This document shows positions 14,478-56,899 of a stretch of 64,000 bases of DNA, piece after piece. The notes under the pieces were generated by a model. That model did no database searches, was not told where the DNA came from, and worked only from the letters and a program-made list of their open reading frames with translations. Location: assembly GCF_040362765.1 (NCBI RefSeq), contig NZ_BAABWK010000001.1, positions 372,001-436,000 of the forward strand. The letters run 5' to 3'. The stretch comes from Pyruvatibacter sp. HU-CL02332. GTDB lineage: Bacteria; Pseudomonadota; Alphaproteobacteria; CGMCC-115125. Positions within the stretch are counted from its first letter, which is position 1. The number at the start of each line of letters is the position of its first letter. Both the position numbers and the translations under genes were made by a program.

Positions 14478-14612
14478 AAACCACTGCAAGTGGAGCCCCT
14501 GGCCTGCCCTTGGCCGGTTTACTGACATCGAACCAAATTCACAGGAGCGGTAATCGCGAAGCCCGGATCACGCCCGTGCCCCTGCAAAACAGCCAATTTT
14601 TGATAGATATGA

Positions 14613-14986
<374 letters not shown>

Positions 14987-54672: not shown

Positions 54673-55752
54673 ATGTCTCAAGACCCTACGGAATCAGGCG
54701 GCTCAACCGCACCGGCCTCACAATCGGACCCGGCCACTTTGGCCGATAGACCGGTCGCATGGGCAATCAGCGGTGGCGCGCGGGGCATGGAGAACCAATG
54801 CCTGGCGCTGGCAGAGGCCGCAGGCTTTGCGCCGGTCCCCCTGCGGGTTGCCGCCAAGGCACCGTGGCGCTGGCTTCCGGAGAAAGCGTGGTCCCTGTGG
54901 GGCAAGGTGCCGTCACGACTCTCAGCTGAAAACCGACAGATGCTGGATGGCCCCTGGCCTGACCTTGTCGTCGCCTGTGGTCGTCAGTCTGTGCCTCTTG
55001 CCATCCACATCAAGCGGGTCTCGCAGGGACGGACATTTGTCGTCCAGTGTCAGGACCCCCGTGTGACACCGGCCCTGTTCGATCTCGTCGTGCCGCCGGA
55101 CCACGACAATGTCGCCCCGGCGCAAAACGTCCTGTCGATCATCGGCTCCCCCAATCTCGCCCTACCCTGGCGACTGGCCGAGGCATCGGACAAATGGGCA
55201 TCAAAGTTCGACGCCCTCGGGCGCCCGCTGGTTGCTGTTGCCATCGGCGGGTCCAGCAGTGCCTACCGCCTGAATCGCAGCACGATCGACGAGCTGTTCC
55301 GGTGCCTTGAGAAGATGCAAACCGAGTCCGGCGCACGCCTCGCCATTACCACGTCCCGGCGGACAGGCACCGACAACGAAGCGCTCATTCAAGCGCACGC
55401 CAAACGTCTGGGTGCGTGGGTATGGGACGGGTCCGGCGACAGCCCCATTTTGGGTCTGTATGCGTGCGCCGACGCCATCGTCGTGACCGAGGACAGCGTG
55501 AACATGGCGGCCGAAGCCGCCGCCAGTGGCAAGCCGCTTTATGTGGCCGAACTCGACGGAGGCTCCGAGAAGTTCGACCATTTCCATGACGTGCTGAAGG
55601 CCCGTGGCATCGCCCGCTCGCTGACCCATGCTCCCCTCGACGCGTGGAGCTACCCCCCGCTGACCGAAACACTTCGCGCCGCGCAGGAAGTCCGTCAGCG
55701 TATGAGCGACAGGGGCTTCGCGCTTCCTGCAGCACCTGGCACCGGGCAATAG
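54673..55752 (+). CDS. ELM1/DUF1022-family protein
   Basis: A 359-residue protein of the mitochondrial-fission-ELM1-like family, named after a plant protein but common in alphaproteobacteria. VAWAISGGARGMENQCLALAEA, the VVACGRQSVPLAIHIKR, QCQDPRVTPALFDLVVPPDHD, AIGGSSSAYRL and VTEDSVNMAAEAAASGKPLYV segments fit a glycosyltransferase-like (GT-B) fold. Bacterial function is not known. The first 25 residues are low-complexity. It precedes a non-coding region with DnaA boxes. Confidence 0.86.
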   Translation: MSQDPTESGGSTAPASQSDPATLADRPVAWAISGGARGMENQCLALAEAAGFAPVPLRVAAKAPWRWLPEKAWSLWGKVPSRLSAENRQMLDGPWPDLVVACGRQSVPLAIHIKRVSQGRTFVVQCQDPRVTPALFDLVVPPDHDNVAPAQNVLSIIGSPNLALPWRLAEASDKWASKFDALGRPLVAVAIGGSSSAYRLNRSTIDELFRCLEKMQTESGARLAITTSRRTGTDNEALIQAHAKRLGAWVWDGSGDSPILGLYACADAIVVTEDSVNMAAEAAASGKPLYVAELDGGSEKFDHFHDVLKARGIARSLTHAPLDAWSYPPLTETLRAAQEVRQRMSDRGFALPAAPGTGQ

Positions 55753-55776
55753 GCTCAATTCATTGCCAGCGCTGGC

Positions 55777-56049
55777 GATTCAGTAGGCGGATCAATATCA
55801 TCCGCTAACTGACTCTCCGGACTCTGATATTTCGACTTATCCACAGGTCAGTACACAGAAGAAGCCTCATGCCGGCAGTCCCGGCCGCAGGGCACGATTC
55901 ACCGCCACAATCCCAAGGCGTAAGCGACTCTAAAGACTCGCAGTTTTGAGTTATCCACACCCCGGCCAATTGTCATCCCCAGCGATTCAAATGGGTCAGC
56001 AACGCCCTGCAAGACGACCCGTGGATTCCGTGTTCGTCAGCCATCCACA
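55777..56049. other. Origin-like DnaA-box and GANTC cluster
   Basis: Non-coding DNA with two perfect DnaA boxes TTATCCACA (55837-55845 and 55951-55959, same orientation) and a third related CCATCCACA (56041-56049). GANTC methylation sites lie at 55777, 55811, 55820, 55896, 55926, 55935, 55984 and 56024, about eight times the random rate. An AT-rich block follows at 56161-56190. It may be a replication origin, a DnaA-titrating site or a DnaA/CcrM-controlled regulatory region. The entire 55753-56296 gap has no gene. Confidence 0.6.
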
Positions 56050-56167
56050 GGGCCCCGCGGCAACGCATCGTCGGGCGCGCCGGATAGGTGATCTAAGGGT
56101 CCTTGGCAGGCCGCACGAAACTGCATGGCAGGTGCGACCAGATGCCCCCGAACGGCCTCTTGTATTT

Positions 56168-56186
56168 AATTAGAAGAATTCTAATT
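56168..56186. promoter_or_regulatory. Irr/ICE-like box upstream of the peroxiredoxin gene
   Basis: AATTAGAA-GAA-TTCTAATT, a perfect inverted repeat in an AT-rich island 110 nt upstream of the peroxiredoxin start. The core TTAGAA-N3-TTCTAA equals the iron-control element bound by Irr in alphaproteobacteria, as far as I recall that consensus. Iron- or peroxide-linked control of the gene is inferred. Confidence 0.5.
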
Positions 56187-56296
56187 TGCATCTCACAGAA
56201 GATGCGGGATTCGCCTGCATGGCCCGGCCGCCCTCCCCGGCTGCGGCACCTTCTGTGGTTTTTGATCTCCAAGTTGCTTTTAAGGAGCCACGCATA

Positions 56297-56899
56297 ATGA
56301 CTGTCCTCGTAGGCAAAACCGCCCCGGATTTCACAGCTGCCGCCGTCATGGAAGACGGCTTCATCAAGGAAGATTTCCACCTGATGGAGCACCTCAAGGG
56401 CTCCTACGGCGTGGTGTTCTTCTGGCCGCTGGATTTCACATTTGTCTGCCCCAGCGAAATCCTCGCCTACTCCAACCGCGTCGAGAAGCTGTCGGCCATG
56501 AACACCAAGGTCGTCGGCATCTCCATCGACAGCCAGTTCACCCACTACGCCTGGCGCAACACAGCCCCCAAGGACGGTGGCCTGGGACCGGTCAAATTCC
56601 CGATGGTTGCGGACGTCTCCAAGCAGATCACCCGTGAATACGGCATCCTGCATCAGGATGAAGTAGCCCTGCGCGGGACCTTCGTGATCGATCGGGACGG
56701 CATCGTCCGCCACCAGCTTGTGAATGACCTGCCGCTGGGCCGCAATGCGGACGAGACCGTTCGTATGGTGGAAGCACTGCAGTTCCATGAAGAAGTGGGC
56801 GAAGTCTGCCCTGCTGGCTGGCAGAAGGGCGATGAAGGCATGAAAGACACCGCTGCGGGCGTTGCTGACTACCTTGGCAAGCACGCAGAGGCCCTCTAA
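56297..56899 (+). CDS. Typical 2-Cys peroxiredoxin (AhpC/Prx1 type)
   Basis: Thiol peroxidase of 200 residues from ATG 56297 with a TAAGGAG ribosome-binding site. The peroxidatic cysteine is C51 in DFTFVCPSEI and the resolving cysteine C171 in GEVCPAGW, the arrangement of Prx1/AhpC enzymes. The next gene is trxB, so electrons probably come from the thioredoxin system; no ahpF is seen. An Irr-like box lies upstream. Confidence 0.94.
   Translation: MTVLVGKTAPDFTAAAVMEDGFIKEDFHLMEHLKGSYGVVFFWPLDFTFVCPSEILAYSNRVEKLSAMNTKVVGISIDSQFTHYAWRNTAPKDGGLGPVKFPMVADVSKQITREYGILHQDEVALRGTFVIDRDGIVRHQLVNDLPLGRNADETVRMVEALQFHEEVGEVCPAGWQKGDEGMKDTAAGVADYLGKHAEAL

Follow-up and report, generated by a model that had tools for sequence, protein, structure and literature searches.

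A conserved array of DnaA boxes and GANTC sites in Candidatus Phaeomarinobacter is probably an unrecognised cell-cycle control site

The closest described counterparts of the locus presented here are datA, DARS1 and DARS2 of E. coli, intergenic groups of DnaA boxes lying off oriC, in which binding sites for accessory proteins are held at fixed spacing between freely varying spacers and whose place along a single replication arm is likewise conserved (PMC4585315). A limited literature search found no datA/DARS-like DnaA control site in Alphaproteobacteria; the combinations of DnaA box and GANTC site known from this class are promoters (PMC4287350), which counts against a stand-alone site. Among the Caulobacter-type cell-cycle promoters (ctrA P1, podJ, mipZ and ftsZ) sites for DnaA and CcrM/GcrA are found close together (PMC4287350; PMC3708114), with a single site or a handful immediately ahead of a cell-cycle gene in the reported cases. 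Further parallels are the crtS site of Vibrio, a short non-coding element that carries methylation sites together with a putative DnaA box and whose place on the chromosome is conserved (PMC6090056), the repABC origins, where GANTC sites cluster in an alphaproteobacterial replication region (PMC6090056), and the hemE-type alphaproteobacterial oriC with its DnaA boxes and GANTC sites.

The window, meaning the whole stretch of DNA that was analysed (64 kb; positions are window coordinates unless a contig, C1 or C2, is named), comes from the source genome G000, and was compared with its congeners G001, G002 and G003. The four belong to Candidatus Phaeomarinobacter, a marine, algae-associated genus (described in PMC4110880). 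The gap between an ELM1-family gene and a peroxiredoxin gene contains the following features:

54673..55752, + strand: flanking gene of the ELM1 family (PF06258)
55753-56296: intergenic gap of 544 bp; ELM1 stops at 55752 and the ATG of the peroxiredoxin gene is at 56297
55777..55845, + strand: module 1, with GATTC 55777-55781, GACTC 55811-55815, GACTC 55820-55824 and a TTATCCACA box 55837-55845
55777-55792 and 55800-55815, + strand: inverted repeat GATTCAGTAGGCGGAT / ATCCGCTAACTGACTC, 24 nt after the ELM1 stop
55896..55959, + strand: module 2, with GATTC 55896-55900, GACTC 55926-55930, GACTC 55935-55939 and a TTATCCACA box 55951-55959
55984..56049, + strand: module 3, degenerate, with GATTC 55984-55988, GATTC 56024-56028 and the weak box CCATCCACA 56041-56049
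56169-56185, no strand: palindrome ATTAGAAGAATTCTAAT, within the probable promoter region of the peroxiredoxin gene
56297..56899, + strand: flanking gene for an AhpC/TSA-type peroxiredoxin (PF00578, PF10417)

All eight GANTC sites and all three boxes of the gap are taken in by the three tandem modules, which share one plan consisting of a GATTC, a GANTC-N4-GANTC pair (a single GANTC in module 3), N11/12 and a + strand DnaA box. The two sites of each pair in modules 1 and 2 are spaced 9 nt apart, the start of the last GANTC precedes the start of the box by 16-17 nt in all three modules, and the boxes, all in one orientation, are 90-114 nt apart.

The initial annotation had described a non-coding gap of about 540 bp with ELM1-like and peroxiredoxin neighbours, two perfect TTATCCACA boxes in the same orientation 114 nt apart, a weaker third box and eight GANTC sites in 252 nt, and each of these held when measured; the GANTC stretch, 55777-56028, is exactly 252 nt long and the third box fits the Caulobacter DnaA-box consensus [TC][TCG][AG]TCCACA quoted in PMC2877005. 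Its estimate of about 0.5 perfect 9-mers per window was also right, since the whole G000 genome contains 26 perfect boxes, or ~0.48 per 64 kb, and the two in the gap are the only ones in the window. Perfect boxes show no clear overall enrichment, the reversed box pattern giving 21 matches genome-wide against 26 true ones. The expectation of about one GANTC in 252 nt was too high: the genome is poor in GANTC (the window has 87, its shuffles 254; 1.17/kb in the 1.72 Mb of G000 scanned) and the expected number is therefore ~0.3. A Poisson estimate for at least eight sites is ~1e-9 per stretch.

Base-by-base scanning extended over roughly half the genome (1.72 Mb, all in contig 1), and pattern searches alone covered contig 2 and the remainder of contig 1. 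Within the scanned part the array is the densest GANTC cluster, with eight sites against six for the next, and nowhere in its first 1.33 Mb, except at the array and at the gcrA promoter, do two TTWTCCACA boxes come within 250 bp of each other. In 5 Mb of first-order random sequence no perfect box pair within 120 bp was found, but one 252-nt stretch with eight GANTC did arise because the random GANTC density is 3.4 times the real one. The GANTC count alone is thus a weaker argument than the footprint across species, and conservation is the decisive evidence; chance clustering is ruled out by the density in the 1.72 Mb scanned together with the footprint in four species.

When analysing the congeners, the same ELM1/peroxiredoxin gap was found to bear the same modules in G001, G002 and G003, and each of the four genomes has a single copy of module 1 and of module 2, both in this gap. 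A strict search pattern, GANTC-N4-GANTC-N10-14-TTWTCCACA, was run against 385 Alphaproteobacteria (the four congeners and 381 others) and gave two matches in each congener, all in this gap. The array is absent from the 381 others, a set holding no sister genus of the same family, where the sole match was a single isolated one in an unrelated context (genome G119); nor did the array turn up at the peroxiredoxin genes of more distant Alphaproteobacteria whose upstream loci were examined. With a relaxed box and one GANTC the array accounts for 3/4 of the genome-wide matches in G000, 3/6 in G003, 3/10 in G002 and 2/6 in G001, the search also recovering module 3 in G000, G002 and G003.

The most diverged pair is G000 and G001, whose ELM1 proteins are 65% identical. 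In modules 1 and 2 of this pair the specified bases are identical at 42/42 positions, compared with 3/6 of the free N and 57/133 (43%) of the spacers, a footprint with a Fisher p of 3e-13. Changes within GANTC between these two species fall on the free N while the other four letters are kept, as selection for a CcrM site would predict. None of the four congeners departs from the start-to-start spacings of module 1 (34, 9 and 17 nt) or from those of module 2 (9 and 16 nt). In module 2 the first GANTC lies 30 or 25 nt before its pair and is displaced in G002, where the module-2 box reads TTTTCCACA. Spacing within modules is fixed whereas the distance between them varies, module 1 to module 2 being longer in G001. 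Module 3, GANTC-N11/12-NNATCCACA, is kept in G000, G002 and G003 and lost in G001. The array stands directly upstream of the peroxiredoxin gene in G000, G001 and G002; in G003 a SnoaL-like gene and a TetR gene (L036:1600-2667, minus strand) form an insertion that separates the array from the promoter region of the peroxiredoxin gene, so placed that both genes next to the array end towards it, and 57/57 specified bases are nevertheless identical to those of G000.

We consider the array to be probably a cell-cycle control site that had gone unrecognised. The two functions other than an origin that the initial annotation had proposed, a DnaA-titration locus and a cell-cycle promoter, both still stand and are backed by the conservation in four congeners. 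Our leading reading, which we hold tentatively, takes the gap for a conserved control site that stands alone, binds DnaA, is gated by CcrM methylation and would resemble datA/DARS in working but not in construction. The fixed sites between free spacers and the G003 insertion with all 57 bases kept fit such a site. The proteins that would act on it are encoded in these genomes, namely DnaA with the signature GGRDHTTVLHG, GcrA, and a methylase of CcrM architecture, its domains being N6_N4_Mtase and RAMA. DnaA would bind the module boxes, and the GANTC pairs, fully methylated before replication, would become hemimethylated on fork passage; the hemimethylated state would shift the occupancy of DnaA and/or GcrA, by which the array may contribute, once in every cycle, to resetting the DnaA that is free or active, like datA/DARS in E. 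coli.

The array shares with datA, DARS1 and DARS2 that it is a non-coding group of DnaA boxes off oriC whose sites and arm position are conserved, the position being taken from three genomes; it lies about two thirds along one replication arm if the terminus is opposite hemE, and this position may have been kept through synteny of the neighbourhood alone. It differs in that GANTC methylation pairs occupy the place of the IHF sites of datA and DARS2 and of the Fis sites of DARS2, and in that its three boxes all point the same way at intervals of 90-114 nt. Sites of the datA/DARS type act by stimulating ATP hydrolysis or nucleotide exchange on DnaA; the array is not known to have either activity. 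Two or three boxes are also few for simple titration, against the 26 perfect ones in the genome. A more specific version of the stand-alone reading, which we think rather unlikely, is a new replication-timed DnaA switch in which phased CcrM pairs would make DnaA binding dependent on fork passage and the methylation state would replace IHF/Fis. If DnaA binding outside an origin were directly tied to CcrM methylation, this would to our knowledge be new. As the locus is compact and conserved, with both types of site in rigid register, the question is open to experiment.

The close rival of a stand-alone site, possible though less favoured by us, is a cell-cycle promoter region, in which each module is or regulates a rightward promoter and CcrM/GcrA and DnaA time the peroxiredoxin gene or an unannotated RNA; sequence alone cannot settle which of the two applies. 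The three proteins that this type of promoter requires are present, and the array adjoins the peroxiredoxin gene in three of the four congeners. With the promoter geometry a GANTC would fall between -35 and -10, at about -29, and the DnaA box would cover the -10 region; cell-cycle promoters of Caulobacter are marked by a GANTC located at -24 to -29, and 19 of 77 DnaA-motif promoters have a CcrM site as well (PMC4287350). Other intergenic DnaA boxes of the genome are situated at gene starts, including those of gcrA and uvrC. A sigma-70-like promoter was looked for at the gap and none was found, although cell-cycle promoters can be atypical. Also against a promoter is the conserved palindrome of the peroxiredoxin gene itself, which sits between that gene and the array. 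Nor does anything point to a conserved RNA beyond the boxes, Rfam giving no match up to E = 1 and the spacers being only 43% identical between G000 and G001. The two oppositely directed genes that separate array and peroxiredoxin gene in G003 point the same way, but they may have been inserted recently, in which case the conserved array in G003 would not prove it independent of the downstream gene, and the insertion does not decide between the readings. Compared with the Caulobacter-type promoters the array has three rigid modules, no obvious cell-cycle gene and no detected promoter.

The palindrome corresponds to the AT-rich block that the initial annotation had placed beside the boxes; the block is indeed present at ~56160-56190, but it is a separate conserved element and lends no support to an origin. 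The ATTAGAAGAATTCTAAT core is kept in G000, G002 and G003 and carries two changes in G001, and G004, a genome without the array, has a similar one ahead of a peroxiredoxin gene (L189). The palindrome is thus a feature of the region upstream of the peroxiredoxin gene and not an origin unwinding element. It appears to resemble the alphaproteobacterial Irr/ICE box, which would suggest that control of the gene is linked to iron or peroxide. A search for plasmid relatives gave only distant plasmid matches to the peroxiredoxin gene.

That the gap works chiefly as RNA, either as a terminator hairpin for ELM1 or as a small RNA, with the DNA sites being incidental, is improbable. The inverted repeat forms a strong hairpin (55777-55815; the fold of 55760-55850 has -32 kcal/mol, z -3.9) with a few paired changes, and it is possibly the end of the ELM1 transcript, its outer bases being GANTC sites, but a search for a T-run terminator at the hairpin found none. 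Modules 2 and 3 fold no better than shuffles, so that an RNA structure of the whole array is ruled out with the module-1 hairpin alone exceeding them; a known RNA is likewise ruled out, the Rfam search of the gap being without match. The conserved bases are moreover the letters of GANTC and the DnaA boxes, with variation at the free N.

A checkpoint like crtS, where fork passage triggers a second replicon, would have comparable ingredients and a conserved mid-arm position, but is very improbable, since the genomes of G001 and G003 each consist of one contig (3.3-3.4 Mb, 100% complete), apparently leaving no second chromosome to control; the methylation sites also differ, GATC in Vibrio and GANTC in the array. 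As for repABC origins, no rep genes adjoin the array.

Least credible of all is the chromosomal replication origin, which the initial annotation had proposed from the DnaA boxes (two perfect, one weak), the GANTC sites and the neighbouring AT-rich stretch, naming cumulative GC skew as a check. In G000 hemE, found by search, is located at C1:1574744-1575760 in the neighbourhood rho-hemH-hemE | PPSR-maf-aroE-coaE-dnaQ-secB (other names from translations), and the gap upstream of it holds a CtrA-type site TTAACACTTCRTTAA followed by GATTC, conserved in 4/4 species. The GC skew steps at this gap (-0.048 before, -0.007 after) and is flat at the array (-0.063 and -0.075); sampled skew in G001 and G003, relative to the genome mean, likewise shifts near hemE/dnaA and not at the array. 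The array is 1.15 Mb from hemE in G000, 1.08 Mb in G003 and 1.06 Mb in G001, ~1.2 Mb from dnaA in all three, and has neither a CtrA site nor hemE as neighbour, while its AT-rich block is the palindrome tied to the peroxiredoxin gene. Judged by the hemE gap, skew and distance, the array is not oriC.

Among the other boxes of the genome, the gcrA promoter (L112, G000 C1:1964539-1964591) has two convergent perfect copies of TTATCCACA 44 bp apart in 4/4 species, together with CtrA-type and GANTC sites in most of the four congeners, and TTATCCACA is by this conservation a conserved site elsewhere in the genus. Ten perfect boxes lie outside ORFs of at least 120 aa, nine of them with a GANTC at most 90 nt away. 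At C1:154385-154640 a perfect box with four GANTC within 40 nt was found near the start of a thioesterase-like gene, and perfect boxes with GANTC lie at C1:1561452 and C1:1563452 between mnmE, mnmG and rsmG-parA. Two more, at C1:472270 near the uvrC start and at C2:539199 between tig and clpP, each have GANTC within 65 nt (all these names are from translations). The runner-up GANTC clusters, six sites in 252 nt at C1:1532631 and C1:242372, are without perfect DnaA boxes. Elsewhere in the window, the minus strand at 14612-14983 encodes a class A RNase P RNA (Rfam RF00010).
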